Part shown: piece by piece, positions 1 through 14,882 of the stretch
Numbering within the stretch: position 1 is the first letter of the stretch
Layout: each line of letters begins with the position of its first letter
DNA from: Sphingomonadales bacterium
GTDB taxonomy: Bacteria; Pseudomonadota; Alphaproteobacteria; Sphingomonadales; Sphingomonadaceae
Length of the DNA stretch: 32,159 nt
Direction of reading: 5' to 3'
Assembly: GCA_027485485.1 (NCBI GenBank)
Contig: JAIXQY010000003.1
Span: 1 to 32,159 of the forward strand
Notes under the pieces: generated by a model
Told to the model about the DNA's origin: nothing
The model's database searches: none
What the model saw: the letters and a program-made list of their open reading frames with translations, nothing else
Translations under genes and position numbers: made by a program

Positions 1-159
1 GGCCGGCAGAATTGGTCACCAATGCCCGGATTTTGGCCACCAGCCTGGCCAAAGCGCCGGATATTTCAGGATAATGTGCCGGCAGAGTTCCGCACGAGCC
101 CATCAAATTGCCGGCTGATGGGGCCGTCTGTCACAGCCGGAACCATGAATTATACGTAG
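1..159. other. Left-edge noncoding stretch with two palindromes
   Basis: No convincing gene is visible in this stretch. It holds a near-perfect palindrome, ATTGGT-C-ACCAAT, at 11-23, which looks like an operator for a dimeric regulator. It also holds a perfect 8-bp hairpin, TTTGGCCA / TGGCCAAA, at 32-39 and 46-53 with a 6-nt loop, flanked by CCGG on both sides (27-30 and 57-60), so the fold can extend. No T-run follows on either strand, so a terminator role is not supported. The gene to the left of the window is unknown, so the role of these structures cannot be assigned. Confidence 0.4.
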
Positions 160-233
160 TTTCAATGGTTTAAATCCAGCCCTGTCCTACAGGTCGCCCT
201 TTGCGCTAAACTGCGGACGTTCTTTGAAAATCC
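160..233 (+). repeat. Repeated intergenic element, copy A
   Basis: This element consists of the blocks TTTCAATG (160-167), CTGTCCTACA (182-191), TGCGCTA (202-208) and CGTTCTTTGAAAATCC (218-233). The same blocks, in the same order and at nearly the same spacing, occur on the minus strand at 13594-13665. It points towards the 3' end of glmS, which lies on the opposite strand. The last block resembles the boxA-like CTTTGA sequences of alphaproteobacterial rRNA leaders, but no rRNA is nearby. It could be a small RNA gene, a promoter-plus-leader, or a non-autonomous repeat. The resemblance of the two copies is directly visible; the function is unknown. Confidence 0.6.
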
Positions 234-239
234 GCACAG

Positions 240-259
240 GCCCGGCCGCGCAGCCGGGC
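240..259 (-). terminator. Possible glmS terminator hairpin
   Basis: A perfect 7-bp stem, GCCCGGC (240-246) with GCCGGGC (253-259), lies immediately after the glmS stop codon on the minus strand. A T-rich tract (ATTTTC) occurs about ten bases further on rather than directly after the stem, so it is a weak candidate for intrinsic termination. It also follows the repeated element on the plus strand. Confidence 0.4.
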
Positions 260-260
260 G

Positions 261-2087
261 CTATTCCACCGTCACCGATTTGGCCAGGTTGCGCGGCTGA
301 TCGACATCGGTGCCCTTGGCCAGGGCAACATGATAGGCCAGCAGCTGCACCGGAATGGCGGTGACCAGCGGGCTGATGAACGGATCGACCAGCGGCAGGG
401 TGATGCTGGCCATCGTGCCCTGGCCATGGGCGGCAATGCCCGGCGCATCGGAAATCAGCACGACCCGGCCGCCGCGCGCCATCACCTCCTGGCAGTTGGA
501 AATGGTCTTCTCAAAGCGCGGACCCGATGGCGCGATGACGATCACCGGCACATGTTCATCGATCAGGGCGATGGGGCCATGCTTCAGCTCGCCCGCGGCA
601 TAGCCTTCGGCGTGGATATAGCTGATTTCCTTCAGCTTCAGCGCGCCTTCCAGCGCCATCGGATAATCCGGGCCGCGCCCGATATAGAGAATGTCGCGCG
701 CCTTGGCGAGATTTGGGGCCATGGCGGCAATGGCGTCCTCCCCCTTCAGCGCCGCGTTCATCGCCGCCGGCACTTCGGTGAGCAGATGGACCAATCGCGC
801 CTCTTCGGCGGCATCGATCCGGCCCTTGGCCTTGCCCAGCGCGATGGCAAAGGCGGCGAGCACGGCCAACTGGCAGGTGAAGGCCTTGGTGGAGGCCACG
901 CCCACTTCCGGGCCAGCGTGGGTGGGCAGTAGCAACTGGGTTTCGCGCGCCATGGTGGAACTGTCCACATTCACCACCGCCGCCACCATCTGGCCGCCGG
1001 CGGTGGCATGGCGCAATGCGGCCAGCGTGTCGGCTGTTTCGCCCGACTGGCTGATGAACAGGCACAGGCCGCCGGGTTCATAGACCGGATCGCGATAGCG
1101 ATATTCGGAGGCATTTTCGATGGCGACCGGTACCCGGGCCAGGCTTTCGATCCAATAGGATGCGACCTGGCCGGCCAGCAGCGCGGTGCCGCAGGCAACG
1201 ATCTGAACCCGCTTCACGTCGGCCAGATCAAAGGGCAGTTCGCTGGGCAGGGCCACGGTTTCGGCCAGCGGATCAAGATAGGCGCCCAGCGTCTGCGCCA
1301 CCACGATCGGCTGTTCGTGGATTTCCTTTTCCATATAATGGCGGTGGTTGCCCTTCTCCATCACCGCCGCGCTGGCAGACGAGGTGATGAAGGGGCGATT
1401 GACCGGCTGATCATCGCCATCAAAGATCGCTGCGCCGCTGGGCGACAGGCGCACCCAGTCGCCTTCTTCCAGATAGCAGATGCGGTTGGTGAAGGGCGCC
1501 AGGCCCAGCGCATCGGAGCCCAGGAACATCTCGCCCTGGCCTTGACCCACCACCAATGGCGATCCGCGCCGCGCGCCATACAGCACATCCGGGTGTGATT
1601 TGAACAGGATGGCAAAGCTGAACGCGCCATGCAGCCGCTTCAGGGTTTGCGCGACGGCGGCATCGGGTGTGGCCCCGGCGGCCAGCGCCAGCTCGATCAG
1701 ATGGGCAACGACTTCGGTGTCCGTCTCCGATGCCAGCGTGCGGCCGGCGGCCAGCACCTCGGCGCGCAGCGGCTTGAAATTCTCGATGATGCCATTGTGC
1801 ACCAGGCAGACATTCTCGGTGGCGTGCGGGTGGGCATTGCCGGTGGTGGGTGCGCCGTGGGTGGCCCAGCGAGTGTGGGCGATGCCGATGCTGCCGGGCA
1901 GCGGGTTGATCGCCAGTTCGCGCGCCAGATTGGCCAGTTTGCCCGACGCGCGGCGACGATCCATCAGGCCGTCGTGAATGGTGGCAATGCCCGCACTGTC
2001 ATAGCCGCGGTACTCCAGCCGGCGCAGGCCATCGATCAGGCGATCGGCCACCGCCTCGGTCGACAGGATGCCGATGATCCCGCACAT
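261..2087 (-). CDS. glmS: Glutamine--fructose-6-phosphate aminotransferase (isomerizing)
   Basis: GlmS makes glucosamine-6-phosphate from fructose-6-phosphate and glutamine, the first step of UDP-GlcNAc synthesis for peptidoglycan and lipid A; it is cytoplasmic. The 608-residue product matches the usual length of about 609. It begins MCGIIG, exposing the Cys2 nucleophile of the class II glutaminase domain, with HTRWATHG further on. Two SIS isomerase domains follow (CGTALLAG, SQSGETADT and TKAFTCQ segments), and it ends in the typical PRNLAKSVTVE tail. The ATG at 2085-2087 has a purine-rich GGAAAGG upstream inside the end of glmU, from which it is separated by 2 nt, so the two are very likely co-transcribed and translationally coupled. 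I see no glmS ribozyme, which would not be expected in this group. Confidence 0.97.
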   Translation of the reverse strand: MCGIIGILSTEAVADRLIDGLRRLEYRGYDSAGIATIHDGLMDRRRASGKLANLARELAINPLPGSIGIAHTRWATHGAPTTGNAHPHATENVCLVHNGIIENFKPLRAEVLAAGRTLASETDTEVVAHLIELALAAGATPDAAVAQTLKRLHGAFSFAILFKSHPDVLYGARRGSPLVVGQGQGEMFLGSDALGLAPFTNRICYLEEGDWVRLSPSGAAIFDGDDQPVNRPFITSSASAAVMEKGNHRHYMEKEIHEQPIVVAQTLGAYLDPLAETVALPSELPFDLADVKRVQIVACGTALLAGQVASYWIESLARVPVAIENASEYRYRDPVYEPGGLCLFISQSGETADTLAALRHATAGGQMVAAVVNVDSSTMARETQLLLPTHAGPEVGVASTKAFTCQLAVLAAFAIALGKAKGRIDAAEEARLVHLLTEVPAAMNAALKGEDAIAAMAPNLAKARDILYIGRGPDYPMALEGALKLKEISYIHAEGYAAGELKHGPIALIDEHVPVIVIAPSGPRFEKTISNCQEVMARGGRVVLISDAPGIAAHGQGTMASITLPLVDPFISPLVTAIPVQLLAYHVALAKGTDVDQPRNLAKSVTVE

Positions 2088-4202: not shown

Positions 4203-5338
4203 CCTCGGTGGAAATTGCCTTGCTGGTGCTGGCAGTGATGCTGCTTGGCTATTTTCTGGGCCGGGTGACGGCCCCGGATGCCGCGCCGCCGCCGCCGGTG
4301 GTTGTGGATGATCCGGTGCCAGCCAAGGCCAATGCCCCGCGTGCCGATCTGCTGCACATCGAAAGCCTCAACGGCCCGGTGCTGATCCTCACCGGCACGC
4401 TGGTGGATGCCGCCAACAGCGCGGCGCGCAGCCTGATGGGCAACCGCATCGTGGGCAGCGACATCCGTCTGACCGTGCGCCATCCCGCCCTGCTCGACGC
4501 TGTGGACCAGGTGATGGCCGACGGCGCGTCGGACGAGCGTGAGATCACCGGGCTGGGCAGCGCCAACCGCAGCTTCCGGTTGCGCGCGCTGGCGGATGGC
4601 GATGGACGCTGCATCGTGCTGCTGGATGATGTGACCCAGGCCAAGGCCACCGAACGGATGCGGGTGGATTTTGTGGCCAACGCCAGCCACGAACTGCGCA
4701 CCCCGCTGGCGACGCTCACCGGCTTCATCGAAACGCTGCAAGGCCCTGCGGCCGAGGATGAGCCGGCCCGCCAGCGCTTTCTGGCGATCATGGCGCAAGA
4801 GGCTGATCGCATGCGCCGGCTGATCGACGATCTGATGAGCCTGTCGCGCATCGAGCTGGACAAGTTCATTCGTCCCACCCAGCCGTTGCTGCTCACCGGC
4901 ATTGCCGCCGAAGTGGCTCGCACCCTAGCAATGCGGCTGGAAGCCGACCAGCGCCAACTGGTGATCGAGGAGCAGGCCGATCTGCCGGCGGTGCGGGCCG
5001 ACCGGGATCAGGTGTTGCAGGTGTTGCACAATCTTGTGTCCAACGCGTTGAAATATGGCCGCACCGGCACCCCGATCATCGTCAATCTGGCGGCCACTCC
5101 CGATCATCTGCGCATCAGTGTGCGCGACATTGGTGATGGCATCGCGCCCGAACATCTGCCCCGGCTGACCGAGCGCTTTTATCGCGTCGATTCCCAGCGC
5201 AGCCGCACCATGGGCGGCACCGGGCTGGGGCTGGCCATCGTCAAGCATATCGTTGAGCGGCACCGCGGCCGGCTGGAAATAGACAGCCGCCAAGGCGAAG
5301 GCACCGTGGTGAGCTTCACTCTGCCGTTGGCGATGTAA
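4199..5338 (+). CDS. phoR: Phosphate regulon sensor histidine kinase PhoR
   Basis: PhoR is the membrane sensor kinase that phosphorylates PhoB when phosphate is scarce. The 379-residue protein has one N-terminal membrane helix (about 4-21), a proline-rich linker, and a PAS-like region (about 50-148). The HisKA domain carries SHELRTPLATLTGF with phospho-acceptor His164. The ATPase domain shows the N box HNLVSNALKYG (277-287), G1 DIGDGI (310-315), the F box ERFYRVD, and G2 GGTGLGLAIVKH (339-350). There is no large periplasmic domain, as is usual for PhoR, which is thought to sense through PstSCAB and PhoU. It is separated from its partner phoB by the whole pst operon, as in Caulobacter-type clusters. 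Confidence 0.93.
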   Translation: MTSVEIALLVLAVMLLGYFLGRVTAPDAAPPPPVVVDDPVPAKANAPRADLLHIESLNGPVLILTGTLVDAANSAARSLMGNRIVGSDIRLTVRHPALLDAVDQVMADGASDEREITGLGSANRSFRLRALADGDGRCIVLLDDVTQAKATERMRVDFVANASHELRTPLATLTGFIETLQGPAAEDEPARQRFLAIMAQEADRMRRLIDDLMSLSRIELDKFIRPTQPLLLTGIAAEVARTLAMRLEADQRQLVIEEQADLPAVRADRDQVLQVLHNLVSNALKYGRTGTPIIVNLAATPDHLRISVRDIGDGIAPEHLPRLTERFYRVDSQRSRTMGGTGLGLAIVKHIVERHRGRLEIDSRQGEGTVVSFTLPLAM

Positions 5339-11600: not shown

Positions 11601-12497
11601 ATGTCCATTTCGTTTGAAGGTCGTGTTGCCATTGTCACGGGTGCCGGTGGCGGTCTGGGTCGCGCCTATGCGCTTGATCTGGCCCGGCGCGGGGCCAAGG
11701 TGGTGGTGAACGATCTGGGCGGCGCCCGTGACGGTTCGGGGGCCTCGCTGTCGGCCGCGCAGGCGGTGGTGGACGAGATCACCGCCCTTGGCGGCGAAGC
11801 CATGGCCAATGGCGCCAGCGTCACCGACATGGCGGCTGTGGAAAAGATGGTCGCCAATGTGCGCGAGCGCTGGGGCCGCATCGATATCCTGATCAACAAT
11901 GCCGGCATCCTGCGCGACAAGACCTTCGTGAAGATGAGCGTGGATGATTTCCGCCTGGTGATGGATGTGCACCTGATGGGCAGCGTCAACTGCACCAAGG
12001 CGGTGTGGGAAATCATGCGCGAGCAGGCCTATGGCCGCATCCTGATGACCACCAGCTCCACCGGCCTGTATGGCAATTTCGGCCAGGCCAATTATGGCGC
12101 CGCCAAGCTGGGCCTGGTGGGCTTGATGAAGACGCTGGCGCTGGAAGGTGCCAAATACAACGTGCATGTGAACACCATCGCGCCGCTGGCCGCGACCCGC
12201 ATGACCGAGGATCTGATGCCGCCGGCCATGCTGGAAAAGATGGGCCCGGAAACCGTGGTGCCGGCCAGCGTCTATCTGGTGTCGGACGAAGCGCCGACCA
12301 ACGTGATTCTGAACGCTGGCGGCGGCGGTATCGAGCGCGCCTATGTCACGCTCACCCGCGGCATCCATCTGACGGCGGACGAAATGACCGCCGAAACCGT
12401 GGCAGCCCGCTTTGCCGAAATCAGCGACCGCACCGGCGAAATCGCGCCGGACAATGGCGGTGCCCAGGCGGCCATGGCGCTGGGGGGCGGCCGCTGA
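11601..12497 (+). CDS. SDR-family dehydrogenase, MFE-2 (3-hydroxyacyl-CoA dehydrogenase) type
   Basis: This is a short-chain dehydrogenase/reductase. It shows the NAD(P)-binding motif TGAGGGLG (13-20), a downstream acidic residue in VVNDLGG, NNAG (99-102), and the Ser / YGAAK catalytic set (Tyr165, Lys169). The segments NDLGGARDGSG and GILRDKTFVKMS are characteristic of the N-terminal dehydrogenase domain of peroxisomal multifunctional enzyme type 2 and its bacterial relatives. A role in beta-oxidation of acyl-CoA or steroid side chains is therefore plausible. No hydratase or SCP-2 domain is fused. It stands 102 bp after phoB, with a weak AGGGA ribosome binding site. The exact substrate is not readable from the sequence. 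Confidence 0.82.
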   Translation: MSISFEGRVAIVTGAGGGLGRAYALDLARRGAKVVVNDLGGARDGSGASLSAAQAVVDEITALGGEAMANGASVTDMAAVEKMVANVRERWGRIDILINNAGILRDKTFVKMSVDDFRLVMDVHLMGSVNCTKAVWEIMREQAYGRILMTTSSTGLYGNFGQANYGAAKLGLVGLMKTLALEGAKYNVHVNTIAPLAATRMTEDLMPPAMLEKMGPETVVPASVYLVSDEAPTNVILNAGGGGIERAYVTLTRGIHLTADEMTAETVAARFAEISDRTGEIAPDNGGAQAAMALGGGR

Positions 12498-12504
12498 TCC
12501 GCGG

Positions 12505-13563
12505 GTGATCGAAGAGCGCGATCTGGATGCCGCGGTTGCGGCCGGCGTGATCGATGCGCCGACGCGGGAGCGGCTGGTGCAGTTCAGCCGCGATCTGAAG
12601 CGGGGCACGGCCGGCGGCGACGAGGAAAGCTTCCGGCTGCTCACCGGGTTCAATGATATCTTCGTGGCCATCGCCATCGGCCTGTTGCTGGTGGCGCTGG
12701 CCGGGATTGCCAGCCTGGTTTCGGAACTGGCCGCCGCGCTGGTGGTGGCCGGGACCAGTTGGCTGCTGGCGGAATATTTCACCCGCCAGCGCCGCATGGC
12801 CTTGCCCAGCATCCTGTTGTTGCTGGCCTTTGTCGGCGCCAGTCTGTGGGCAGCGCTCAGCCTGCTTGGCGGCGTGGCCCGGCTGGGTGAAGGGGCCGAA
12901 GCCGGGCAGGCGCTGCAGATCAGCAGCATATTGGCCAGCGTGGGCGGCGCGGGGGCGGTGGCGGCCACGGCCCATTGGTGGCGTTTCCGCGTGCCGATCA
13001 CCATCGCGGCGGGCGCTGCCGCCATCAGCCTGGCCGCCATCAGCCTGGCCGGCGGCGTGCTGGGCCCGGCCTTTGCCCTGGCTGGCACCAACATCCTCAC
13101 CCTTTTGGTGCTGATCTGCGGCGTGGGTGTGTTCACGTTGGCCATGGCCTTTGATGCCCGCGATCCGGCCCGCATCACCCGCTGGTCTGATGTGGCGTTC
13201 TGGCTGCATCTGCTGGCGGCGCCCATGCTGGTGCACCCGCTGTTCAATGGCACCGGCCTGGTGGAAAGCGCTGGCCAGCCGGTGGCAGCCGCCCTGGTGG
13301 TGCTGGCCTTTCTGCTGCTCACGCTGGTGGCCCTGGCCATTGATCGCCGCGCCCTGATCGTGTCGGGCCTGGGCTATGCGATCTTTGCCATCCAGACGCT
13401 GGTGAAACAGGGCAATGATCTTTCGATCAGCACCAATGTCGGCCTGTTGATCGTGGGCCTGATGCTGGTGCTGCTCTCTGCCGGCTGGCGATCGGCGCGC
13501 GCCCTGCTGGTCCACCGCCTGCCGCTGGGGCTGCAGGCCAAACTGCCCGCACCGGCGCGTTGA
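12505..13563 (+). CDS. Polytopic membrane protein, function unknown
   Basis: I do not recognise a specific function. The first 40 residues are soluble and charged (VIEERDLDAAVAAGVID, then RERLVQFSRDLKRG), a pattern reminiscent of the leader of DUF2157-type membrane proteins. About nine or ten hydrophobic helices rich in Ala, Leu and Gly follow, and a short basic tail ends it. The frame is open back to 12412 inside the SDR gene. The conserved-looking part begins at a GTG at 12505, 8 nt after the SDR stop, which gives 352 residues. Translation coupled to the SDR gene is likely. An upstream ATG overlapping the SDR end cannot be excluded. Confidence 0.68.
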   Translation: MIEERDLDAAVAAGVIDAPTRERLVQFSRDLKRGTAGGDEESFRLLTGFNDIFVAIAIGLLLVALAGIASLVSELAAALVVAGTSWLLAEYFTRQRRMALPSILLLLAFVGASLWAALSLLGGVARLGEGAEAGQALQISSILASVGGAGAVAATAHWWRFRVPITIAAGAAAISLAAISLAGGVLGPAFALAGTNILTLLVLICGVGVFTLAMAFDARDPARITRWSDVAFWLHLLAAPMLVHPLFNGTGLVESAGQPVAAALVVLAFLLLTLVALAIDRRALIVSGLGYAIFAIQTLVKQGNDLSISTNVGLLIVGLMLVLLSAGWRSARALLVHRLPLGLQAKLPAPAR

Positions 13564-13836
13564 CCGGAAAAGTCCGGCCGGAAAATTTTTGCTGGAATTT
13601 CAAAGAACGGTTGATGGTACCGCATTGGCCGGGGTGTAGGACAGCGCGCTTCCAAGGCACTGAAAATCATGGATTATTTGCCCCGTCCAGCGTTGCGGCA
13701 GGCGATTTTGGCCGATTCGCCGGGATTTCCCCCATGAAAAACCGCCGGATCTGCTGGCGCATTGGCGCGGTTGGTGTCCGGGCGCTGGCCGGCGGGGTCC
13801 GGCCGCTGGGGAAAGCCGGGGTGCGGGTGCCGGGAA
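13564..13836. other. 273-bp intergenic region between convergent genes
   Basis: The region lies between the membrane protein gene (+) and the DUF2794 gene (-). It begins with two CCGGAAAA direct repeats (13564-13571, 13578-13585) followed by ATTTTT, possibly a weak transcription stop for the plus-strand gene. It then holds copy B of the repeated element (13594-13665). Near its right end is a hairpin, GGCCGG (13787-13792) / CCGGCC (13799-13804), that could help end the DUF2794 transcript. A 96-codon plus-strand frame spans it but looks non-coding. Confidence 0.5.
13594..13665 (-). repeat. Repeated intergenic element, copy B
   Basis: Read on the minus strand, this copy carries TTTCAGTG, 13 nt, CTGTCCTACA, 10 nt, TGCGGTA, 8 nt, CGTTCTTTGAAATTCC. 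Against copy A (160-233) the blocks match 7/8, 10/10, 6/7 and 15/16, with spacings differing by at most 1 nt, while the sequence between blocks differs. It lies downstream of the minus-strand DUF2794 gene and points at the 3' end of the plus-strand membrane protein gene. Its role is unknown. Confidence 0.6.
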
Positions 13837-14178
13837 TTACAGGAGTTTAAGCAAGCGCCGTTCCAGCACCGCCAGCACGCTGGCCAGTTCGTGGCCGCGT
13901 TTCAGGATCACGCCGGCTTCGCCATAGAGCACCCATTCGCCCTGGCGGCTGCGCAGCGCCGGGTCTTTCACCAGCCGCACATCGGGGTTCTCGGCGGCCC
14001 GGCGGAAGGCGGAGAAGCTGGCGACCTTCGGGCCCAGTTCCAGGGCATAATCGCGCCACTGGCCGGCGGCGACCATGCGGCCATAAAGCGACATGATGCG
14101 ATCAAGCTCGGCGCGGGTGAAGGCCACTTGGGCAGCGCGCGGGGCGCTGGTGGCGGCAAACGGGATGACATTGCTCAC
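13837..14178 (-). CDS. DUF2794 family protein
   Basis: This small alphaproteobacterial protein of unknown function has 113 residues. The open frame extends upstream, but family-like sequence starts at a GTG (14176-14178) giving VSNVIPF, preceded by GGGAGG. Recognisable segments are FTRAELDRIMSLYGRMVA, QWRDYALELGP, FSAFRRAAENP and VILKRGHELASVLAVLERR. The first of these, with its YGRMVA and WRDYA blocks, is what I associate with DUF2794. No signal peptide or membrane helix is seen. It follows the serine acetyltransferase gene by 32 nt on the same strand and is probably co-transcribed with it. Confidence 0.8.
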   Translation of the reverse strand: MSNVIPFAATSAPRAAQVAFTRAELDRIMSLYGRMVAAGQWRDYALELGPKVASFSAFRRAAENPDVRLVKDPALRSRQGEWVLYGEAGVILKRGHELASVLAVLERRLLKLL

Positions 14179-14210
14179 GCCTCCCAGAGTGGCGCGGCCG
14201 CGAACGCCGG

Positions 14211-14882
14211 TCAACCGGCCTTTCTGTGCGCCTCTTCCCGGGTCAGATCGTCGAGCCGGGCTTTCAGCACCTCGATCTCGCAGCGCAGCAGCTCCAGCTT
14301 CTGGGTTTCGGGATCGAATTTCTGCGCGCACGGCGTGCCATAGGGCATGAACGGCCGGGCATAATCCTCGGCCGCCACCACCACGGCCTTGGCCGGGATG
14401 CCGACCATGGTGGCGCCTTCCGGCACATCGCGCGTCACCACGGCGTTGGCGCCCACGCGGGCATTGGCGCCCACGGTGATCGGGCCCAGCACCTGTGCGC
14501 CGGAACCGATGATGGCGCCATCCAGGATGGTGGGGTGGCGCTTGCCGCCAATGCCGCCGGCCGGATCGGTGCCGCCCAGGGTGACGCACTGATAGATGGT
14601 GACATTGTCACCAATCTCGGCCGTTTCCCCGATCACCACAAAGCCGTGATCGATGAAGAAATTGCGGCCGATGCGGGCGCCGGGGTGGATATCGATGGCG
14701 GTGAGCAGGCGGCTGATGTGATTGACCAGCCGGGCCAGGAAGAAGAAGCGGGCGCGGAACAGCAGATGGGCAATGCGGTGCATGCCCAGCGCCCACACAC
14801 CGGGATAGGTGAGGATTTCCAGCTTTGACCGCGGCGCCGGGTCGCGCTGTTTCACGGAATCAAGATAGGCGATCAAACCCAT
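14211..14882 (-). CDS. cysE: Serine O-acetyltransferase, EpsC-type
   Basis: The enzyme acetylates L-serine with acetyl-CoA, the committed step of cysteine synthesis. The 223-residue protein is shorter than E. coli CysE (273), as in the EpsC type. It has a short helical N-terminus ([15 protein letters not shown]), then a left-handed beta-helix with [17 protein letters not shown] (catalytic His), [23 protein letters not shown] and KRHPTI. A charged helical tail ends [22 protein letters not shown] is well placed upstream of the ATG. The tail does not show the usual terminal Ile of CysK-binding enzymes, so formation of a cysteine synthase complex is uncertain. Confidence 0.9.

Follow-up and report, generated by a model that had tools for sequence, protein, structure and literature searches.

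Promoters of leaderless mRNAs place the ATG at the transcription start, and the EcfG general-stress promoters of Alphaproteobacteria follow the pattern GGAAC-N17-CGTT. Bacterial MITEs and intergenic repeats are dispersed and occur at variable positions. The elements described here, built around the core CTGTCCTACA, resemble leaderless promoters in that a sister form carries an ATG at its predicted start, but CTGTCCTACA replaces the usual -35 and, in the form studied here, a boxA-like sequence replaces the ATG. Like the EcfG promoters they would be a lineage-specific two-block promoter, although neither block is alike, and like MITEs they are dispersed at variable positions, but they have a register and an orientation rule as well. 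Leaders in which boxA and Nus factors bring about antitermination occur in rRNA, suhB and other transcripts (PMC5725501), a paper which, according to its discussion, set non-coding RNAs aside in its list. Our elements share with these leaders a boxA-like sequence near the presumed transcript start, and TTCTTTGAC stands before 23S in two same-genus operons; they differ in being scattered between genes, in their link to a single promoter motif, in pointing toward opposing genes and in a boxA core that deviates in 10 of 18 genus copies.

The pair that gave rise to this analysis lies in a 32,159-nucleotide stretch of a Sphingomonadales genome (hereafter the window), and its two copies are members of a large family of dispersed DNA elements in one bacterial group. 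Judging from the sequence, we think it rather probable that each copy represents a lineage-specific promoter class that gives an untranslated, probably antiterminated RNA against the converging gene. If true, the family would have a further, new layer of regulation, formed by promoters whose 10-bp core is strongly constrained, present in as many as 91 exact copies per genome and followed by either an ATG or a boxA-like start; Nus-factor antitermination would extend beyond rRNA and coding leaders, via boxA on dispersed untranslated RNAs, and head-on transcription between converging genes would become testable as a regulated process.

The two copies and the element family

The original prediction had described two intergenic copies of four conserved blocks, each copy aimed at the end of an opposing gene, and it was accurate in coordinates, spacing and position (Table 1); what each copy faces is the stop codon of an opposing ORF. 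The copies are identical at 38 of 41 block positions (7/8 + 10/10 + 6/7 + 15/16), and the gaps between blocks, read directly, are 14/13, 10/10 and 9/8 nt in copy 1/copy 2. Copy 1 ends 27 nt from glmS, and copy 2 ends 30 nt from its opposing ORF. The combination CTGTCCTACA-N15-40-TTCTTTGA occurs twice in the window against a mean of 0.00 over 100 shuffles; less striking are CTGTCCTACA alone with at most one mismatch (2 against 0.57 expected) and GTTCTTTGAAA alone with at most two (6 against 2.09 expected). At a guess, the upstream block of copy 1 could be an activator or UP site; among the 18 genus copies TTCA gives the most frequent letters at offsets -21 to -18 (9-12 of 18 per position). The near-palindromic TTTGGCCACCAGCCTGGCCAAA is common to the own-genome copies L001, L002 and L004, in one of which it is altered.

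Table 1. Positions of the element blocks and neighbouring genes in the window, with loci of HTH genes found behind cores in this and other genomes.
Feature	Position	Strand	Remark
Near-palindromic block TTTGGCCACCAGCCTGGCCAAA	32-53	+	about 150 nt upstream of copy 1 core
Copy 1, upstream block TTTCAATG	160-167	+	15-22 nt before CTGTCC; read directly
Copy 1, core CTGTCCTACA	182-191	+	over presumed -35 region
Copy 1, third block TGCGCTA	202-208	+	read directly
Copy 1, TGCGCTAAACT	202-212	+	third block and -10-like hexamer TAAACT (207-212); presumed register
Copy 1, boxA-like block CGTTCTTTGAAAATCC	218-233	+	predicted transcription start about 219
glmS, opposing gene downstream of copy 1	261-2087	-	
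ORF opposing copy 2	12412-13563	+	without NCBIfam or Pfam match
Copy 2, boxA-like block CGTTCTTTGAAATTCC	13594-13609	-	predicted transcription start about 13608
Copy 2, TGCGGTACCAT	13614-13624	-	third block and -10-like hexamer TACCAT (13619-13614); presumed register
Copy 2, third block TGCGGTA	13624-13618	-	read directly
Copy 2, core CTGTCCTACA	13635-13644	-	read directly
Copy 2, upstream block TTTCAGTG	13658-13665	-	read directly
ORF upstream of and co-directional with copy 2	13837-14589	-	residues 155-239 match DUF2794
HTH loci behind cores			L152/L309 (own genome), L207 (G179), L232, L233, L237 (G110), L310 (G009), L313 (G207)

When the block combination was searched in the own genome and in relatives, it was found more often than by chance. 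The own assembly (240 contigs, 3.32 Mb) contains the exact block pair four times and the reversed pattern not once, and CTGTCCTACA 39 times against 4 for its reversed pattern, while relatives reach 91 against 11. A sequence-only model, R1, made from 53 copies (five of them from the own genome), gave 35 matches there at E<=10 and nine at E<1e-4, five of these nine being model members. The 10-mer CTGTCCTACA was in excess in all nine family genomes tried, eight of which were relatives picked for many model hits, with ratios from 2 (G073, 32 against 16) to 27 (G122, 82 against 3). It was scarce in the three genomes tried from other families of the same order (3/0, 1/3 and 2/5 against the reversed control). 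At E<=0.1, R1 found a match in 144 of the 199 genomes in the window's family and in 78 of its 96 genera; by our estimate, chance would account for about 20 genomes. We take this family to be Sphingomonadaceae, since named contigs such as L092 and L023 are identical to members of it.

An exact scan of GTDB genomes returned 63 stretches. Of these, 48 bear the label of Sphingomonadales or one of its genera, and 15 of the 48 come from one Novosphingobium-labelled MAG. Going by their labels, we set aside 14 stretches from outside Sphingomonadales as chance and retained L068, labelled Microvirga; L031, L053, L073 and L092 were dropped as duplicates of other rows. The model alignment was built without L025 (coding-looking by eye), L082 (truncated at its end) and spans longer than 50 nt. 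Gene calls throughout are those of a simple custom finder, by which all 30 own-genome loci examined (29 distinct sites, L145 being the same as L153) are intergenic. L163 and L174 belong to G009, and some of the direct-repeat, tail and shared-site rows called "own" mix the own genome with G009. The sole viral-contig match to the exact block pattern is L325 (IMGVR_UViG_3300031692_000026, 4303-4346, minus strand), and plasmids, queried with two of the elements of other genera, gave no match.

The element family was not found in the literature searched. Among the matches listed for TGTCCTACA no title concerned a bacterial promoter, and among those listed for leaders, small RNAs, start-site maps, intergenic repeats and gene transfer agents of the group no title or abstract start named the motif, preprints and many subscription papers being outside the scope of the search.

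Probable promoter register and the boxA-like block

That the element might be a promoter plus leader gained support from the register of ATG or YTCTTT behind the core in other genera, where CTGTCCTACA looks like the part of a promoter that lies farther upstream. We took 60 exact sites from three other genera, hand-picked rather than random (20 of 26 in G207, 20 of 91 in G179, chosen among the 54 listed, and 20 of 38 in G110), and dropped the seven inside ORFs, leaving 53 intergenic sites. An ATG begins 36-39 nt after the first C of the core in 18 of the 53 (3/17 in G207, 5/20 in G179 and 10/16 in G110), 12 of them at offset 37, whereas later positions have 0.57 each. A YTCTTT block is found at 36-38 in ten sites and at 62-69 in another 12, all 12 in G179, for a total of 22; the ATG and the YTCTTT block never occur at one site (0/53). 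Recounting without the 13 sites that were already model hits left 40, with 16 ATG, 12 YTCTTT and again none with both. In the own genome, 30 distinct sites (two G009 rows removed) comprise 12 with a boxA-like block, only one with an ATG at 36-39 and 17 with neither. The exact core present in most of these site sets is a consequence of searching by it.

According to this arrangement, CTGTCCTACA would span the -35 region, a degenerate TAnnnT-like -10 would follow, and transcription would begin about 36-37 nt after the first C. The ATG or YTCTTT register, together with the position of the weak -10, thus places the start in the window near 219 on the plus strand and 13608 on the minus strand. Against the promoter reading stand the single ATG among the 30 own sites, the weakness of the -10 region in the other genera, with 0.04-0.42 bits at offsets 24-30, and the boxA-like block of G179, which follows the presumed start by 25-30 nt. 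A sigma-70 scan of window positions 1-600 counts against it too, with one match, at 46-75, none at copy 1, and no TTGACA.

The resemblance of the last block to boxA, which had hinted at antitermination, finds some support in the YTCTTT register and in TTCTTTGAC before 23S in the two same-genus operons. Both window copies share TTCTTTGA with the sequence before 23S in these two genomes, the only ones of 31 in which our search detected 16S; rRNA was not found in the own assembly. The sequences TTTCTTTGACATTGTG and TTTCTTTGACATTGTGAATGG stand before 23S in the two operons, and GCTCTTTCTCATCG and GCTCTTTCTCATCGTAGG before 16S. The consensus of the 53 elements, GTTCTTTGACAnC, resembles TTTCTTTGACATTGTGAATGG of the 23S side, and the G179 elements as well as three own tails of the second form of the element, class B, resemble GCTCTTTCTCATCGTAGG of the 16S side, so that elements of both kinds exist. 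The 18 boxA-type copies of the genus (12 own, 6 from G009) divide into eight with YTCTTT and ten with YTCCTT. These ten, which include both metK copies, read TTCCTTGA or CTCCTTGA, that is YTCCTTGA and not YTCTTTGA, which counts against the boxA reading. The proximity of the block to the 5′ end of the predicted transcript fits the start deduced from the ATG register. In the form found in the window the transcript would open with the boxA-like sequence, and we propose that RNA polymerase would for this reason recruit Nus factors and become resistant to Rho as it makes the untranslated RNA.

We also considered whether the element is a copy of the rRNA promoter and rejected this: the region before 16S in two relatives has, by eye, a TTGACG/CATAAG-like pair, and the nearest CTGTCCTACA-like words (at most three mismatches) are not at that promoter.

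Orientation, conserved sites and downstream repeats

Most boxA-type sites point at the end of an opposing gene, the property first claimed for the window pair. Of the 18 genus copies, 17 face the 3′ end of such a gene, and an opposing gene is faced by 21 of 22 boxA-type sites in three genomes of other genera, by 29 of 35 other sites and by 11 of 12 MAG copies; in the set formed by the last two, four of 51 sites had no callable neighbour, and all of these sets overlap in genomes and contain several sites that are orthologues of each other. By contrast, 13 of 18 ATG-type sites face a co-directional gene, which differs from the boxA-type at a Fisher p of 8e-6, a test that was picked after the data were seen and that excludes 13 sites of neither type. 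Exceptions are a copy before dnaA, with no opposing gene ahead of it, and likewise six of the 35 other sites. This copy upstream of dnaA belongs to class A, the form of the window copies; in L001 the gap between element and dnaA is long and holds a CTGTCAT-type direct repeat which, by eye, resembles a Pho box. Genes following cores in other genera are varied (trpA, pyrC, moaC, a pterin-binding enzyme, GST and an ArsC-like protein), and a single regulated pathway was rejected on these grounds.

If the promoter reading is right, the RNA would be directed at the 3′ end of the gene next to it, which is encoded on the opposite strand and in the case of copy 1 is glmS, while in the sister form, common in some other genera, the ATG at the same position would be a leaderless start, mostly directed toward co-directional genes. 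The sequences themselves show the motif, its excess, the register with ATG or YTCTTT, the intergenic placement and orientation, and kept blocks at one shared locus; we infer that the element is transcribed, that its boxA-like block is functional and that its RNA reduces the opposing gene's read-through or expression. A wider picture, in which tens of dedicated promoters per genome provide boxA-led, Rho-resistant antisense transcription that runs head-on into converging genes and serves as a fence against read-through, with an ATG version for leaderless genes and terminase-small-subunit-like HTH proteins perhaps as dedicated activators, is in our opinion doubtful.

Conservation of the loci in close relatives, to which the original prediction had looked, was contradicted at glmS, where the element is missing from all 22 readable same-genus genomes over a stretch of up to 600 nt behind the stop codon (one more genome, the 23rd, was too short). 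At metK, a site common to the own genome and G009, the two can be aligned on either side of the element; its TTTCA, CTGTCCTACA and GTTCCTTGA blocks are preserved, and its spacers differ. Citromicrobium-like genomes have another site in common, next to a gene that by eye is ssb-like, and one shared class B site keeps the core, the -10-like block and GCTCTTTCTCAG. The view that the pair is not a recent duplication is therefore upheld by metK, with its kept blocks and diverged spacers, and weakened by the glmS-side copy, absent from those 22 relatives.

Class B loci also carry downstream repeats. In seven own class B loci (L135-L139, L142 and L146) the distance from the stop codon of a co-directional gene to the element is 4-64 nt. 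Many class B loci are followed, at 86-154 nt, by a direct repeat like GTCAATTGTGTCAAAA, and in three (L140, L146 and L148) CTCTTTCTCA comes next. The direct repeat is specific to the genome: GTCARNTGTGTCARR occurs 38, 32, 10 and 9 times in G207, G029, the own genome and G009, and its reversed pattern 0 times. The tandem direct repeat about 85-155 nt downstream of many cores is GTGTCAGGTGTGTCAGG in L185-L204 and L245-L274 (G207 and G029) and GTCAATTGTGTCAAAA in own class B loci (among L135-L154); G110, G179 and the Novosphingobium-labelled MAG each have a different sequence there. Searching back from 16 repeats of G207/G029, we found an exact core 110-146 nt upstream in seven and a core with one or two mismatches in three; four others had a core with three mismatches, for which chance may suffice, and two had none.

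Such repeats, genome-specific and lying about 85-155 nt beyond many cores, could suggest a non-autonomous mobile repeat of the MITE kind, whose dispersed copies with conserved ends would persist in 3′ intergenic gaps, where an insertion is nearly harmless. The absence of the glmS-side copy from the 22 readable relatives also fits such an origin, as do the 15 similar copies of about 200 nt in the Novosphingobium-labelled MAG, with their sharp left boundary at CTGTCC. However, a mobile repeat agrees poorly with R1 matches (E<=0.1) in 78 of 96 genera, with blocks kept and spacers free within one genome, with the ATG or YTCTTT register and with sites common to several species, both flanks included, and we regard it as unlikely. 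An element may be both mobile and a promoter, and a mobile origin of some copies in addition to the promoter class is likely.

RNA readings and genes behind the cores

The elements could instead be ordinary small-RNA genes with a common promoter, the RNA acting in trans and the orientation reflecting where they are tolerated. In 18 of 24 units of G207/G029 a T-run of four or more shortly precedes the direct repeat, and in these units the presumed start lies 64-101 nt from the T-run or repeat, which speaks for such genes. The RNA body, however, is not conserved between copies of one genome, its folding hardly beats that of shuffled sequences (mean z-score -0.6), the 65-nt core has no conserved pairs, and in the window only 27-30 nt separate the element from the opposing stop codon, all of which make this explanation improbable.

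The structured RNA that had also been suggested did not survive, since the 53 sequences of the 65-nt core contain no consensus pair; a riboswitch-like regulatory RNA or a DNA maintenance site of origin or segregation type, to which the fixed blocks and the copy upstream of dnaA might point, is very hard to credit given zero pairs and no Rfam match over cut-off in the window in the first case, and an ATG register and orientation left unexplained in the second. In the Rfam search of the window nothing exceeded the gathering cut-off, and below it there were chance-level matches only, among them CC0196, which overlaps the tail of copy 1 (17.9 bits, E 3.3). Fifteen other loci gave two tRNAs and one suhB/mmgR match, none on an element; the last, a suhB (mmgR) sRNA match in L093 (2043-2120, minus strand), lies about 3.3 kb from a MAG element on the same contig.

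Returning to the promoter class, terminase-small-subunit-like HTH genes lie within about 400 nt behind a CTGTCCTACA core in 11 of 16 cases in four genomes (6/7 in G110, 3/6 in G207, 1/2 in the own genome and 1/1 in G009), counts that include some cases placed by coordinates alone and that start from an HTH query itself taken from behind a core. The five members that we scanned all hit PHROG 4044, terminase small subunit, with E from 3e-5 to 7e-22, and four of the five gave nothing over cut-off against Pfam and NCBIfam. By their position, these HTH proteins are candidates for the cognate factor. In L238 (G110), a GTA_holin_3TM gene (PF11351) begins 69 nt after a CTGTCCTACA core.
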